From Fibrobacter intestinalis (GTDB taxonomy: Bacteria; Fibrobacterota; Fibrobacteria; Fibrobacterales; Fibrobacteraceae), in contig NZ_FUWU01000023.1 in assembly GCF_900167415.1 (NCBI RefSeq), positions 1 to 38,553 on the forward strand: a stretch of 38,553 nucleotides of DNA. Direction: 5' to 3'. Positions 10,933 through 19,396 of this stretch are shown in pieces (the stretch's first letter is position 1; each line of letters starts with the position of its first letter). Below the pieces are notes generated by a model, which did not search any database, had not been told where the DNA came from, and worked only from the letters and a program-made list of their open reading frames with translations. The position numbers were made by a program, and so were the translations under genes.

Positions 10933-11516
10933 TGGTAGAAGCGGAATTTATAACGGCAGCGACAAAACCGTCGCAGTTTCCTTCGGATGGACTTCCTCAG
11001 ATCGCCTTTTTGGGACGTTCCAATGTTGGCAAATCCTCTCTTTTAAACGCGCTTTCCGGGAAAAAGAAGCTCGTCCGGATTAGTTCTAAACCGGGAAAAA
11101 CCAAGGAAATCAATTTCTTTAAAATCAACCAGGCGTTTTATTTGGTGGACCTTCCGGGCGTTGGCTTTGCCGGCGTGAACTTTGAAAAAGTCCGGGAAAT
11201 GGAAGTCGGCATCCGATCATATGTGGAAAATGCCAAGGAGCTTCGCGGCATCATTTATTTAATCGATTCGAAAATCGGCCCGCAGCCCATCGACGTGGAA
11301 GTCATTGAAAATATTCGTTCTCTTGGCTGCCCCGTACTTCCGGTGATGAGCAAATGCGACAAGGCGAATCAGTCGGAACAGGCCAAAACTCGCAATGCCA
11401 TTTCTCGGATTTTTGGAAAAGATGTTCGCCCTGTTCGAATCAGCGTTCTCCGTAAAATCGGGCTGGATGAAATCTGGCAGGAAATTCTTTCGTCTGTTGC
11501 CGTCGAGGTAAAATGA
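10929..11516 (+). CDS. engB: ribosome biogenesis GTP-binding protein EngB (YsxC/YihA)
   Basis: An essential GTPase for 50S subunit assembly, 195 residues. G motifs visible: G1 GRSNVGKS (29-36), the G2 Thr in KPGKT (54-58), G3 DLPG (74-77) and G4 SKCD (141-144). The usual G4 is TKxD; Ser for Thr is a mild change. The N-terminal segment AEFITAATKPSQFP is typical of the family. Two ATGs (10929 and 10932) are possible; the first overlaps the recR stop. The 3' end overlaps mlaE by ATGA. Placement between recR and mla genes is a local arrangement I do not recognise as conserved in other phyla. Confidence 0.95.
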   Translation: MMVEAEFITAATKPSQFPSDGLPQIAFLGRSNVGKSSLLNALSGKKKLVRISSKPGKTKEINFFKINQAFYLVDLPGVGFAGVNFEKVREMEVGIRSYVENAKELRGIIYLIDSKIGPQPIDVEVIENIRSLGCPVLPVMSKCDKANQSEQAKTRNAISRIFGKDVRPVRISVLRKIGLDEIWQEILSSVAVEVK

Positions 11517-13247: not shown

Positions 13248-14213
13248 TTGTTAAAACCGGTGCGAAAGATCAACTGGATGGAAATGTCAGGCCTGCTGGT
13301 CGGCGTGTTCATTACTTTTGCGCTGATGGTCTTTCTATTTGTCTTTTATGCCCGCTTGACATCGGCCGGGGTCATCGGAGTCGAAGAATATAAACTCTAT
13401 AGCTTCTTTGAAAAAGCGCAGGGATTGCATCCGGGAACGGAAGTCCAAATCAACGGTGTCCGGGTGGGGCAAGTGTCGAATTTGAATATCGATGCCTCTG
13501 GATTGGTCCGCATGGAATTTACCATCCGGAAGGAATTCCAGCCGTGGATTACGGACAAGGCGATGATTTTTGCCATTCGCGACCAGAACGTGATTTCGGA
13601 ACGCGTCGTGAATATAGACGTTCGCAAGGGCGAAGGAAGGGTCTTGGAAGACGGCGACATGATTACCGGCGGGAAAGCGCAGGACATCGAAACGGTTTTG
13701 GAAACGCTGAACGAAGTGCTGGAACGCGTTACGGTTTTGATAGACGCCGCCGATACGCTTGTCGCATTGACCATGGACACCAACACGACAATTGGCGCGC
13801 TTCTCGGCTCCAAGCTGGTTTATGAAAAGTTGAACACCCAGCTGGATCGCCTTGACTATTTCTCGTATGAAGGCATTCGGCTTTTAGATGTCCTTTCGGG
13901 CGAAGTCCCTCGCATTTTGTACCGTACGGATTCCCTTACCCAGAAGCTTTTCTCCATGACGAACGAAATGGAAAACGTGCCGCAGAAAATCGACAACGCG
14001 TTCCTTTCTCTGGATCGCTTCTTTGGACAGATGAATGGGGCCATGGATTCGTTGAACCGGATGGTGGGTGGTGTAAATGGGCTGGTTTCGCAAGGCGAAG
14101 AAACGCTTTTGAATGCGGACAACCTGATTGAAGGCGCGTCCAATATGTGGATAATCCGCCGTTCATTGCCCAAGCGGGATTCCGTTCCGTTTGTTGCGGA
14201 GGACGTCTGGTGA
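13248..14213 (+). CDS. mlaD: MCE-domain protein MlaD, TTG start
   Basis: The substrate-binding MCE component of the Mla system: anchored in the inner membrane with the MCE ring in the periplasm. The 321 residues comprise a short cytoplasmic start, one membrane segment (~15-34, GLLVGVFITFALMVFLFVFY), an MCE domain (~45-125, with YKLYSFFEKAQGLHPGTEVQINGVRVGQV) and a long helical C-terminal part that may form a tube. TTG at 13248 is chosen because a strong AAGGAG (13234-13239) lies 8 nt upstream, and the next in-frame ATG would start right at the membrane segment. The stop overlaps the following start (TGATG). Confidence 0.92.
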   Translation: MLKPVRKINWMEMSGLLVGVFITFALMVFLFVFYARLTSAGVIGVEEYKLYSFFEKAQGLHPGTEVQINGVRVGQVSNLNIDASGLVRMEFTIRKEFQPWITDKAMIFAIRDQNVISERVVNIDVRKGEGRVLEDGDMITGGKAQDIETVLETLNEVLERVTVLIDAADTLVALTMDTNTTIGALLGSKLVYEKLNTQLDRLDYFSYEGIRLLDVLSGEVPRILYRTDSLTQKLFSMTNEMENVPQKIDNAFLSLDRFFGQMNGAMDSLNRMVGGVNGLVSQGEETLLNADNLIEGASNMWIIRRSLPKRDSVPFVAEDVW

Positions 14214-14980
14214 TGCGCCGCCTTTTCGTTGCGATTTGTTTCCTTTCCACTGCGCTCCTTGCCGCCGATTCTCAAAATTTCGCTTTCCGTGCGGACAAGG
14301 CTCTACAGGCGGGAAAGTTTGCCAAAGCAAATGGGTTGTACGAACGGGCGCTGCTTTCTTCTCGAAAGGAATCGGACATTGTTTCGGAAGGGCGCATTTT
14401 GATTTCGATGGCGATGCTCCGCGTGCAGAGTCTGGATTTGAACATGGCGAAGGATTTGCTGAAGCTGGTTCGTAAATCGGATTTGGATACCAATACGTTG
14501 GGCGCCTATTATCTTGCGTGGATGGAACTCTATCTGGAAGAGGAAAATTACGACAAGGTCATCGATATCAAATACTCGCTTTCGGAAAAGTTTTTGAAAG
14601 AAATTTCGGGCGGATTGCGAGGAGGCATTTTAAATGTGGCGGCGATGGCGTTTGCAGGAAAGGGAGACGCTCAAAACGCGCGGCTTTATTTGAAAGATGC
14701 GGATGACGCTTTGGATGGGGAAGCTCCGGGCAAGATGGCTTTCGCTTCGGCGCGGGTGGCGCATTTGCTGCAGGATGACGCTGCGGATTCCCTTTACAAC
14801 GAGGCTTTGCAATTTGCCGTTCGTGCCAATCGTCCGTTTATGTCCGCGACGATCCTCTATTACCGCGGCTTGAACGAAAAACGCCCGGACATCGCTCGGG
14901 ATTACTTTGTACGCAGCGCGAACGCTTTTGAATTGCTGGGCCTTCGTCGGAACAGCGAGCGGGCGAAGGCGGGACGGTAG
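14213..14980 (+). CDS. secreted TPR-like protein at the end of the mla run
   Basis: A 255-residue protein with a signal peptide (MRRLFVAICFLSTALLAADS) and then only helical repeats that look like degenerate tetratricopeptide repeats (FRADKALQAGKFAKANGLYERALLSSRKE, YLAWMELYLEEENYDKVIDI, GDAQNARLYLKDADDAL). I do not know a named family. It overlaps the mlaD stop by one base and has GCGGAGGA just upstream, so it is translationally coupled and probably belongs to the lipid transport machine as a periplasmic scaffold; that is inference from context only. After its stop the base composition changes sharply to AT-rich. Confidence 0.78.
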   Translation: MRRLFVAICFLSTALLAADSQNFAFRADKALQAGKFAKANGLYERALLSSRKESDIVSEGRILISMAMLRVQSLDLNMAKDLLKLVRKSDLDTNTLGAYYLAWMELYLEEENYDKVIDIKYSLSEKFLKEISGGLRGGILNVAAMAFAGKGDAQNARLYLKDADDALDGEAPGKMAFASARVAHLLQDDAADSLYNEALQFAVRANRPFMSATILYYRGLNEKRPDIARDYFVRSANAFELLGLRRNSERAKAGR

Positions 14981-15097
14981 ATTCGTAACGAGGCAAAAGG
15001 CGATTTTGTCGTTTTCAAAATGCAGCCTTTATTTTATAATCCGCTTGGCAGATAAAGTGTGCCATAAATAACAAATATTTTAAGTTGTATTGAGTTT

Positions 15098-16420
15098 ATG
15101 TACAGAATTTTTCTTGTTATTTTCTTATTTTTCCTTGTTTCTTGCTCCTCCGATGTCAAAATGGAACAGGATATTTTGGCGTATCATATATACAGCCAAA
15201 CAGATTTGGATTTAAATTCAAAGAATAAAGAAAATGTTGCGTTACTAGCAAAATCCTTTGGAATGGAGATGCCGGACGTTGTTGAAGTTTTAAATCATAT
15301 CCTTTCAAAAAAAACGGGTAGTGCTCTGCGGAGGGATTTTAAAACAGCCATAGAAGATAAAATGACTTTGCTTGAACGTCATAAGGTTAATGAAAAAAAT
15401 CGGAAGGATTTTGTTATCAATGTTTTAGGTCCCTATTTGAATCTTTTGTCTCGTAATGAACTTCAAAATGTGGGCTTGGAATCATTTGATTTTCAGAATA
15501 GAATTTGCAAATTGTTTGGAAAGTTCTTCCCTAATAAAATACATAATGCCTTGGATTTATTTATTGGCAATGTTCGGTTTTATTTTGATGGCGGTTCATC
15601 TTCGGTAAAATTCTTGCATATTCTTAATGAGACTATGATGTCGCAGGATTATTATGTGGATTTTTCTTTTAGAAGTTCTGCAAATATTTTGATAATAAAG
15701 GAAGAAATTCTTCCTGAAACTTGCTATGGAAAATTTTCCATTAGAATTTTGAATTTAAAACGAATTATGCCGGGACTATTGCAGCCTAAAACGGGGTATT
15801 TTAGAATCGGGAGCAATACCGTTATTCTTCTGGATGATATGATTGCTATTGAAGCGGAAGAACTGATGACGGAAATGAAAACGAAAGGCTTTGAAAAATA
15901 TGCAGATGTTCGTTTTACGAAATATTGGCGTTCTATAGGGTTGAATCTAGATGTGTCAAAAGCGAGCCAAAGTTATATGGATTTGATAAGGCGAGATTTA
16001 GAGGGAAAGAAATTTGCTTATATCAAAACCGCCCTTCAAATGGATGTGGCTATTCATGAGGCAAAGCATCTAGCAGATAACATTGAGCATCCCGAATTGA
16101 CGTTGAATATTGATCGTGAATTTTCAGCGCATATGACACAGGCTTATTTTAGCCCCATTCCTTATGTTGCCCTGTTTTCAGTAATCAATCGGATGCAGCA
16201 ATATGCAATGTTTCATAAAGTGTCTGCATTAAATGACGTTACTCGAAGATTGTGGCGGATGGCGATTCGTTCCGCAGAAGATTCAAACTATTCCATTCAA
16301 TCGCTCCGCTCTGATTTGATGAACTTGTACTTAGATTTCAGAACCATTCGCGAATACGCAAAGTTTGAAGCCTTAGACGACTTCGGAAAAATTGTCGAAA
16401 AAATGAAGTTTGGAAAATAG
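15098..16420 (+). CDS. predicted lipoprotein with HExxH metallopeptidase-like motif, 440 aa
   Basis: The N-terminus MYRIFLVIFLFFLVSCSSD is a lipoprotein signal with lipobox LVSC (Cys16). In the C-terminal third, VAIHEAKHLADNIEHPE contains HEAKH at 320-324, matching the HExxH zinc-protease motif, and DREFSAHM places Glu341 as a possible third ligand. Nothing else matches a peptidase family I know, so catalytic activity is unproven. The gene is AT-rich with many Lys, Ile and Asn codons, unlike the mla genes upstream, which suggests acquisition together with the restriction-modification pair that follows. It stands alone, 117 nt after the previous gene; a TTATAAT box near 15035 could be its promoter. 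Confidence 0.72.
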   Translation: MYRIFLVIFLFFLVSCSSDVKMEQDILAYHIYSQTDLDLNSKNKENVALLAKSFGMEMPDVVEVLNHILSKKTGSALRRDFKTAIEDKMTLLERHKVNEKNRKDFVINVLGPYLNLLSRNELQNVGLESFDFQNRICKLFGKFFPNKIHNALDLFIGNVRFYFDGGSSSVKFLHILNETMMSQDYYVDFSFRSSANILIIKEEILPETCYGKFSIRILNLKRIMPGLLQPKTGYFRIGSNTVILLDDMIAIEAEELMTEMKTKGFEKYADVRFTKYWRSIGLNLDVSKASQSYMDLIRRDLEGKKFAYIKTALQMDVAIHEAKHLADNIEHPELTLNIDREFSAHMTQAYFSPIPYVALFSVINRMQQYAMFHKVSALNDVTRRLWRMAIRSAEDSNYSIQSLRSDLMNLYLDFRTIREYAKFEALDDFGKIVEKMKFGK

Positions 16421-16862
16421 GCTTTGAACTCAGCTGTAATTCAATAAGCCTTTCGCGGGATTTTGGATTGGGGAATATGCCATGATTTTTTTCCTCCCCC
16501 TACTTTTCATTTGCTTTCGTACTTATTATAGCCGCTATATAATGAATCACAGGAAGAATGTTGTGTCAATGCGTTTATTGCCGTGTTAAAGAATGCTTCT
16601 TAATCGTCAAATAAAGGCCTGTCGCTGGTTTTCATTCTCATTTATTTATGAGATTTAGCACATTATGCAAAATTTCATCTATACGCTATAACCTTGCTTA
16701 AGGCTTTAAACCCAAATTTCTAAATGTTTGCGAGCGAAGCTGTTATGAAACTTGGCAATTTATTGACTTAGTCAAGTTCAGGGTGGCGGCTCGCATAGGT
16801 TGGTAGGCTTGCCGTACCGCTTTTAATTTTTCTTGACAGCCAAATTTTTTATATTTCACGTT
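16421..16862. other. AT-rich intergenic region before the restriction gene
   Basis: About 440 nt with no credible gene on either strand. Visible features: an imperfect hairpin near the left end (AGGCTT/AAGCCT), CCTTGCTTAAGG near 16692, and the palindrome TTGACTTAGTCAA near 16764, which resembles half of the GACT-N3-AGTC boxes bound by restriction-system controller proteins but with the wrong spacing. TTGACA is at 16833-16838 and TATATT at 16850-16855. They are only 11 bp apart, so they do not form a normal promoter pair, but TATATT alone would place the transcript start at or next to the ATG at 16863. Confidence 0.5.
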
Positions 16863-17753
16863 ATGAACGATATCGGCAAATTTAAAAAGTCATTTGAGAC
16901 GTCGCTGAATGAGTTTGTCGCTTCTTTATCTGAAGTTGTTGCCACTGAGGACGGAAGTTGGACGATAAAAGGATTTATTGATGCTTACAAAAACATTTAT
17001 ACCATTTCTGCTGATACGAAAATTATTTCTAAAATTTTAGAAATACATTTATTTCCTCAAATTATGGAATTTGCTCAACGATTCGGTTATAAAGTCGTTC
17101 TTGCCGATAAGCAAAACTGGTATCCTGATTTAACATTTGTCTGTGAAGAAAATGAAAGTATTAAATTCGCAGTGGATATAAAGACGACGTTTAGACGGAA
17201 TGGGAAAACTGCTGGCTTCACCTTGGGGAGTCATGGAAGCTATTTTAAGGAGAGAAACAAAAGTAAAAATATTCAGTTCCCTTACAATCAATATGCTGCA
17301 CATTATTGTCTCGGTATTGTTTATACAAGAAATGAAATTCCTGATTCGGAGCAATTAAATATCTATAAAACGGAAGAAATAGATGCTACACAATCTATGG
17401 TTGGCTATAGAAAAGTTACGCGTGTCAAAAAGTTGGAATCCATTGTTTCTGTCATAAAAGATTTTGATTTTTTTGTCGCTGAAAAATGGAAAATAGCAAG
17501 TGATAAACAAGGCTCTGGAAATACAGCCAATATAGGTTCTATAAGTGATATAGAAGATTTAAAAGAAGGGAATGGTGTATTTTCTTCTCTGGGTGAAAAA
17601 ATTTTTGACGAATATTGGATGAATTTTGGTACAGCGGTTTTGATAAAAGATGGAAAACCTCTAAAAATTAAGAACATCCGAGATTTTTTAGAATTTAAGG
17701 GGCGTTTGGACCTTCTCGAAAAAATTAATCCAAAATATTTGCCAAGGAACTAA
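16863..17753 (+). CDS. EcoRV-like type II restriction endonuclease (predicted GATATC)
   Basis: The 296-residue protein can be followed along EcoRV (245 residues, recalled sequence) with a constant offset in the catalytic half: E60, P88-D89, D105 and K107 correspond to EcoRV E45, P73-D74, D90 and K92, the metal-binding PD-(D/E)xK site. The Q-loop keeps Q84-N85 before WYPD. The recognition loop reads GSGNTANIG (217-225) against GSGNTTNIG (182-190) in EcoRV. YNQYAAHYCLGIVYTR and FTLG also match. The same target, GATATC with blunt cutting, is therefore expected. The longer length comes from an N-terminal extension of ~15 residues, a ~20-residue insertion before the R-loop, and a C-terminal extension. 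The start at 16863 (MNDIGKF) is preferred to 16833. The methylase gene follows after 2 nt. Confidence 0.92.
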   Translation: MNDIGKFKKSFETSLNEFVASLSEVVATEDGSWTIKGFIDAYKNIYTISADTKIISKILEIHLFPQIMEFAQRFGYKVVLADKQNWYPDLTFVCEENESIKFAVDIKTTFRRNGKTAGFTLGSHGSYFKERNKSKNIQFPYNQYAAHYCLGIVYTRNEIPDSEQLNIYKTEEIDATQSMVGYRKVTRVKKLESIVSVIKDFDFFVAEKWKIASDKQGSGNTANIGSISDIEDLKEGNGVFSSLGEKIFDEYWMNFGTAVLIKDGKPLKIKNIRDFLEFKGRLDLLEKINPKYLPRN

Positions 17754-17755
17754 AG

Positions 17756-18658
17756 ATGTCTGTTATAGTTCCACCAATAAAAAGTCAGGGAATCAAAACC
17801 AAGCTGGTTCCTTGGATAAAACAATGTCTGCCTTTATATAAAGGAAAATGGATTGAACCATTTATGGGAACGGGTGTTGTTGCTTTTAATTTAGCAGGAG
17901 AGCGCGCCGTACTAGCTGATACGAATCCCCATATCATCGGTTTTTATAAAAAAATTCAAAACGGGGAAATAACGGGAGGTAATGTTCGTTCTTATCTTGA
18001 ACAAGAAGATATTTTGCTGCGAAATTCTTCAAGTGAGGGCTATGATCATTATATTGAAGTTCGCAAAAGATTCAATTCCGGAGAATATTCGCCGTTCGAT
18101 TTTCTTTTTCTTTCTAGAGCAGGCTTTAATGGAATGATGAGGTTCGGAAAGAAAGGGAACTGGAATATTCCGTTTTGCAAAAAGCCAAACCGTTTTGCTC
18201 CTGCCTATATCACAAAAATTGTTAATCAGGTGAATAACGTTGCATCGATTATCAAACCCCAATGGAAATTTTTGAATCAGTCATTTGAAAAAACGATTCT
18301 TGATGCTCAAAAGGATGATATGATTTATTGCGACCCTCCCTATTATGGTCGTTCTGTAGATTATTTCAATACTTGGACAGAAACGGATGAAAAGAAATTA
18401 TTCGACTTGTTAAGAGAATTTAAGGGAAAATTCATTCTTTCTACATGGCATCACAGTGAATGGCGTGCAAATGAAATGATTGAAAAATATTGGAATCATT
18501 TTAACATTGTTACAAAAGACCATTTTTATCATAATGGTGCTCATTTGGAAAATCGCAGAAGTGTGGTGGAAGCGTTAGTTTGCAATTATGATGTGCCTAA
18601 AGTTATTGAATTTTCCAAAAAAATTTTAGAAAATGAACAATTAAGTTTGGCTTTATAG
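17756..18658 (+). CDS. EcoRV-like adenine-N6 DNA methyltransferase (D12/Dam class)
   Basis: The protective partner of the preceding nuclease: it transfers methyl from S-adenosylmethionine to adenine in the same site. The 300-residue product is of Dam/D12 class: motif I EPFMGTG (34-40) for SAM binding, motif IV DPPY (193-196) for catalysis, and LFLSRAGFNGMMRFGKKGNWNIPF between them, as in the M.EcoRV/Dam group. Length matches M.EcoRV (about 298). It is downstream of the nuclease in the same direction with a 2-nt gap. Its stop region overlaps the last 6 bases of the convergent gene at 18653, so the island ends abruptly there. No controller gene is visible. Confidence 0.93.
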   Translation: MSVIVPPIKSQGIKTKLVPWIKQCLPLYKGKWIEPFMGTGVVAFNLAGERAVLADTNPHIIGFYKKIQNGEITGGNVRSYLEQEDILLRNSSSEGYDHYIEVRKRFNSGEYSPFDFLFLSRAGFNGMMRFGKKGNWNIPFCKKPNRFAPAYITKIVNQVNNVASIIKPQWKFLNQSFEKTILDAQKDDMIYCDPPYYGRSVDYFNTWTETDEKKLFDLLREFKGKFILSTWHHSEWRANEMIEKYWNHFNIVTKDHFYHNGAHLENRRSVVEALVCNYDVPKVIEFSKKILENEQLSLAL

Positions 18659-19396
18659 TTTCTTCATCGAAAGCAGCTTGTTGAACGCATCGTTCGGATT
18701 CATGGAACGCTTGGAAAGCCTTTCCAGAATATTTTTGACTTCTTCTGCCGCGGAAGTATCCTGTTTTAAAACCCGCAAGGTTTTGGGAGTGAAGCCGTGG
18801 ACAAAATCGCTGTATTCCGGATTCATGACGTCGTTGATAATCATTTCGAGCGCCATTTCGGTCTGCATCGTGTTCAAGGCAAAATTGCGGTAGATGGAAC
18901 GGATATGTTTGGGAATCGTCGAGTCCGGGCTTGTCGAAAAAGGTTCCATGATTTTGGAAGCTTCTGCATAGTTGTGAGTCGGACCGTTTGCCAGCCGGAG
19001 CGCCAGATAAATCGCCAAACGCCAGTCTTCAGGATAAACCCGAGTGCCTCGCCGCATGACGATAAAATCGGTGGTGTCCGCTTCGTCGTTGTGCGTGATT
19101 CCGCCTACGACTTGATACGGCGTGTAGAAAAGGGAATCGAGCTGGGTCGAGAGGTTGCCGACATGGGAAAGCCAGGAGTAGGAATTTCCGGTGATATAGC
19201 TTTCGCCGAGATCGATGACCCCGCGAATCCAGAACAATCCGGCTGCGGTTACATTGTGCCCCATGGCGAACGCTTTCGCATAATTCGCCTTGGGCAGAAA
19301 TTCTTCTTTTTGCGGGAGTTGCGGCAGGGGCTTTGCAAAGTGGAATGCGCCCGCTACAACCAGACAGGAAAAAAGAATGCACACAATATATCGCAT
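18653..19396 (-). CDS. membrane-anchored or secreted hypothetical protein, 247 aa
   Basis: The N-terminus MRYIVCILFSCLVVAGAFHFA is a signal peptide or anchor. The rest is helical, with ANYAKAFAMGHNVTAAGLFWIRGVIDLGESYI, a block reminiscent of membrane-associated TPR-type proteins of unknown role, and later DWRLAIYLALRLANGPTHNYAEASKIMEPF, which resembles a TPR helix pair. I do not recognise a named family. It lies 25 nt downstream of pyrF on the same strand and is probably the last gene of the ispA-dxs-trmH-pyrF run. Its 3' end overlaps the methylase gene by 6 bases. Confidence 0.72.
   Translation of the reverse strand: MRYIVCILFSCLVVAGAFHFAKPLPQLPQKEEFLPKANYAKAFAMGHNVTAAGLFWIRGVIDLGESYITGNSYSWLSHVGNLSTQLDSLFYTPYQVVGGITHNDEADTTDFIVMRRGTRVYPEDWRLAIYLALRLANGPTHNYAEASKIMEPFSTSPDSTIPKHIRSIYRNFALNTMQTEMALEMIINDVMNPEYSDFVHGFTPKTLRVLKQDTSAAEEVKNILERLSKRSMNPNDAFNKLLSMKKL

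Follow-up and report, generated by a model that had tools for sequence, protein, structure and literature searches.

In a 38,553-nucleotide stretch of Fibrobacter intestinalis DNA (contig NZ_FUWU01000023.1; hereafter the window), we found a pair of adjacent genes which we read, with a probability of roughly 80%, as a horizontally acquired type II restriction-modification (R-M) system of the EcoRV family, belonging to a two-gene tandem branch of that family that lacks a controller (C) gene. Systems of this kind are already known, while EcoRV-type endonucleases (R) are rare in the phylum of the host: only three of its 168 genomes, that of the host included, encode one.

An EcoRV-type gene pair in a low-GC insertion

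The assignment of R rests on concordant profile, sequence and structure matches. The Endonuc-EcoRV profile PF09233 covers the whole protein (345 bits against a curated cut-off of 25, E 2.3e-103), EcoRV chains are matched among PDB sequences at E 2.6e-36, and R shares 34% identity with EcoRV of plasmid pLG13 by tblastn and 36% in the alignment. The catalytic residues of EcoRV, D74, D90 and K92 (PMC4081073), align with D89, D105 and K107 of R at a constant offset of 15, and the GSGNT of the recognition loop aligns with residues 217-221 at an offset of 35, with 20 residues being inserted in R between the two sites relative to EcoRV. Catalytic and recognition-loop residues were found to be invariant in the 7 diverse and 20 close relatives aligned. 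When an AlphaFold model of R, which is of moderate quality (pLDDT 67) and adds confirmation of the fold only, was employed in a Foldseek search, the best matches were all EcoRV (E 4e-15, TM-score 0.76 by target), and EcoRV was the only PDB protein matched at E <0.001. An in-frame TTG at 16833 is a possible alternative start of R; the ATG at 16863 is preferred since both the relatives and a -10-like box upstream of it favour this codon.

The methylase gene (M) begins 2 nt after the stop codon of R and runs in the same direction. Its product matches the MethyltransfD12 profile (E 3.5e-44) and the Dam family TIGR00571 (E 5e-55) and is 54% identical to M.EcoRV in the alignment; among its PDB matches, Dam scores 25-30 bits lower than DpnM. 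An earlier note on this DNA had claimed an EcoRV-like active site and recognition loop at constant offsets, followed 2 nt downstream by a co-directional D12 methylase, and both claims are borne out by these results, to a degree well above chance. As judged from the sequence, R is predicted to cut unmethylated GATATC and M to methylate an adenine in the same site, and we infer that the system is active.

Table 1 Features of the R-M locus and its insertion, in coordinates of the window.
Feature	Positions	Strand	Evidence
Insertion of low GC content comprising R, M and the ORF 15098-16420; missing from four congeneric genomes	14981..18658		GC profile, genome comparison
Candidate -10/-7 box, TATATTTC, of a putative leaderless R mRNA; differs from TAnnTTTG by one mismatch	16850..16857	+	motif comparison
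R gene, ATG to end of stop codon: intact type II restriction endonuclease of the EcoRV family, 296 aa	16863..17753	+	PF09233, PDB EcoRV, invariant catalytic residues
Codons for D89, D105 and K107, the catalytic residues in R	17127..17183	+	alignments with EcoRV; PMC4081073
Recognition-loop codons of R, GSGNTAN (217-223); GSGNTTN in EcoRV	17511..17531	+	alignments
Candidate ribosome-binding site AAGGA, 7 nt upstream of the M ATG	17744..17748	+	SD-like motif check
M gene: adenine-N6 methyltransferase of the D12/Dam family, 300 aa; 54% identity with M.EcoRV	17756..18658	+	profiles, alignment
DPPY motif codons (residues 193-196) of M	18332..18343	+	alignment with M.EcoRV

Could the system be dead or dying, with M perhaps kept while R is inactive or no longer matters? 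Such a state occurs among relatives, as R has decayed with M kept in G022 and in L046, the R of the latter being interrupted by stops, and it would also fit the host genome, in which GATATC is not avoided (52 sites seen against 53 expected in the ~212 kb sampled). R of F. intestinalis, however, is full length and retains every invariant residue of the family, and we regard a dead system as improbable. Other sites stood out in the same ~212 kb of the host: GTCGAC occurs at 0.08 and GTTAAC at 0.15 of the expected frequency, compared to 0.69 for GTCGAC in the congeneric genome G144. This depletion suggests past exposure to another restriction activity, e.g. one of the GTYRAC kind.

The R-M pair is horizontally acquired. 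GC content falls from ~50% to 33-38% between ~15.0 and 18.7 kb, and the stop codon of M overlaps that of a convergent host gene (18653-19396). Homologues of this gene and of its convergent counterpart on the other flank (14147-14980) adjoin directly in four of the five congeneric genomes (G141-G144), indicating that the R-M pair together with the ORF at 15098-16420 constitutes an insertion of ~3.7 kb at a variable site. The fifth genome, G140, carries unrelated small ORFs on the same side of the 18653 gene, one of which appears KilA-N-like by eye. Both R and M are single-copy in the host genome, and no further defence gene was recognised in the flanks of the insertion. The ORF at 15098-16420, which lies within the same low-GC insertion, encodes a lipoprotein-like product of 440 aa with an HEAKH motif. 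It was considered as a component of the R-M system and rejected, given that it has no match in Pfam or NCBIfam, is sporadic in occurrence (7 of 61 genomes of the family) and is missing from G080, a genome carrying an EcoRV-type R of another branch without a homologue of this ORF. In addition, the host genome contains ~25 copies of a dispersed repeat, also present in G144, to which a 35-nt intergenic element upstream of R (16744-16778) is similar; the common form of this repeat is CACTTGTCAATTTATTGACTTAGTGGAGTT.

Gene order and controller genes across the family

To place the locus among its relatives, we compared gene order in the best 80 of at least 555 relatives in genome contigs and in members of the same branch from plasmids and viruses. 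Of the close relatives examined, 77 have M on the contig, and all of these carry R and then M in tandem without a C gene. The two genes overlap by 4 nt in 43 of 76 cases; spacing in the remainder ranges from -11 to +9 nt, with one exception at 179 nt. At the F. intestinalis locus, no C-like HTH frame was found between positions 11001 and 24000 of the window, and the 442 nt upstream of R contain only frames of at most 38 aa and thus no C gene directly upstream. A C-like gene directly beside R was found only in another branch, sampled through plasmids and viral contigs only, which is represented by plasmids of E. coli (EcoRV), Acinetobacter, Geobacillus and Leuconostoc and in which M is divergent or convergent.

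The R-first order without C is hence the normal arrangement in a large branch of the EcoRV family, the members of which are mostly Bacteroidota. The earlier note was right in seeing no controller gene here and in ascribing to EcoRV's own system another order with a controller, as M is divergent from C-R in pLG13. Its premise that R-M units usually require a leading M or a controller gene was too strong, because R-then-M is the order not only of the whole tandem branch (77/77) but also of EcoRI and Eco29kI. How a host survives entry of such a system, which the note had left open, is a real question, although not one peculiar to this locus: it belongs to the whole tandem branch. Since the R-first, C-less order is the rule there, the problem of safe entry concerns a conserved architecture and not a single odd locus.

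Protection might also come from a controller protein or a methylase encoded elsewhere in the genome, and C proteins of EcoRV-type systems, being small HTH proteins, could act in trans. Yet the linked C gene is missing in all relatives, and a trans-acting controller would therefore have to exist in every host; a search for a second GATATC or Dam-like methylase revealed no other homologue of M in the host genome at E 0.001. We consider protection from elsewhere in the genome highly improbable.

Several individual loci deserve mention. In L023, an HTH frame with a weak score lies ~400 nt upstream of R and may be unrelated. L004 (G022:C55, positions 1-1200), a tandem-branch locus from the same phylum as F. 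intestinalis, has lost the middle of R, including active site and recognition loop, in frame, and its overlapping M reads intact up to the contig end. In L051 (3022-4881), a single frame of 620 codons spans both R and M, with the junction at the position of the 4-nt overlap seen in relatives; either the fusion is natural, or a frameshift arose from sequencing, the genome being metagenome-assembled. EcoRV-like R genes were also observed in the archaeal Halogranum virus HGTV-1 and in viral contigs (L013, L110-L113), with no M found in the stretch examined.

In the phylogeny of R, the tandem systems all fall into a single clade (support 99.6) that excludes EcoRV. R.EcoRV (L009, pLG13) groups with the C-R type (support 99), and forcing it into the tandem clade was rejected (p-AU 0.009). 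M.EcoRV from the same plasmid, by contrast, nests within the tandem-type M sequences (support 98), with a borderline topology test (p-AU 0.051). In these trees, the EcoRV system looks as if it were a hybrid of two branches, the topology test being firm for R but only borderline for M.

The start of R and its possible control

How might R be held low without a controller? In 33 of the best 80 of at least 555 relatives, a Bacteroidota -7 box (TAnnTTTG) is found upstream of R, with its end 3-5 nt from the ATG (exactly 4 nt in 27), the R starts having been chosen by their distance to a conserved protein motif and not by the box. As a control, we inspected 199 other genes of the same loci, of which seven have the box 2-9 nt before the start (Fisher 2e-14 compared to R, a value serving as a guide only because relatives are non-independent); none of the M starts of the relatives has a box that close. 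The boxed upstream sequences form 27 similarity groups, so the box does not stem from one recent clone. The boxed relatives have a T tract before the box in common, and no SD-like 4-mer precedes their R. Such 4-mers precede 6% of R compared to 31% of M genes. The other 47 relatives lack a close box, with 20 of them having an exact box farther upstream, and a -33 element was not enriched upstream of R. In F. intestinalis, the candidate box, which has one mismatch, ends 5 nt before the R ATG, follows a T tract and is not accompanied by an SD sequence. In its favour, no upstream 6-mer is more over-represented in the genus than TATATT (5.1-fold). Taken alone, this box could be due to chance, since TATATT lies equally close to the ATG in 10 of 333 genus genes (~3%). 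A GATATC at 16869-16874 (R codons 3-4) was considered as an autoregulatory site and dismissed, as it is not common to the relatives.

A promoter abutting the ATG of R would cause transcription to start at or next to this codon, so that the mRNA of R would be leaderless. In the AhdI system, low translation has been linked to mRNA of this type (PMC5333194); weak translation of such an mRNA would keep R low, and M would be translated from a ribosome-binding site of its own within the same transcript. We put this forward, tentatively, as the most likely mechanism and our best lead. By extension, it is possible that the C-less tandem branch carries a conserved promoter abutting the start codon (T tract, TAnnTTTG, 4 nt, ATG), that weak leaderless translation of R thereby replaces a controller protein, and that this promoter travels with the system between hosts which read such promoters. 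If true, a leaderless R start would be a simple, protein-free way to hold R low while M is made.

A different type of control is found in the R-then-M operons of EcoRI and Eco29kI, which are regulated by reverse promoters and by a promoter of M located within R (PMC3874152). Applied to F. intestinalis, it would mean that M is expressed from within R, that reverse promoters in the operon restrain R and that the box before R plays no part in timing. The gene order is common to EcoRI and Eco29kI, where this control was shown experimentally (PMC3874152), and a sigma-70-like match at 17640-17668, ~90 nt before M, would be compatible with an internal promoter. Counts of simple motifs lend it no support: the region has 8 promoter-like matches compared to 7.5 in shuffles, and promoter motifs inside R and M of the relatives do not exceed synonymous-codon shuffles on either strand. 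Control of this type appears less likely, although promoters of other kinds may lie inside R, and the leaderless start of R stays our preferred, if tentative, explanation.

Comparison with known systems

The EcoRV system of E. coli plasmid pLG13 (NC_005019) shares the R family, the catalytic and recognition residues and an M with 54% identity. In pLG13, C and R are co-directional with M divergent, and control involves overlapping promoters and C (PMC5333194), whereas the F. intestinalis locus is an R-M tandem without C; moreover, EcoRV lacks the 20-residue insertion that precedes the recognition loop in the R studied here. The EcoRV-family pairs of pRMAR01 (Rhodothermus marinus) and pSMS3-1 (Antarctobacter) and the pairs of Bacteroidota and others (L014-L093, 57-68% identical) show the same R-then-M order, abutting or overlapping, without C. 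These tandem relatives differ from the locus only in sequence divergence and host phylum, and the gap is 2 nt in F. intestinalis compared to a mostly 4-nt overlap. The R families of EcoRI and Eco29kI are not known to be homologous to EcoRV-family R. Both systems have the same R-then-M operon (PMC3874152), but the internal M promoter and reverse promoters shown there find no support in the motif counts at the F. intestinalis locus. In the AhdI system, a leaderless transcript lowers translation of one gene (PMC5333194); there the leaderless gene is C, the product of which controls R, whereas in F. intestinalis it would be R itself, in a system without C.
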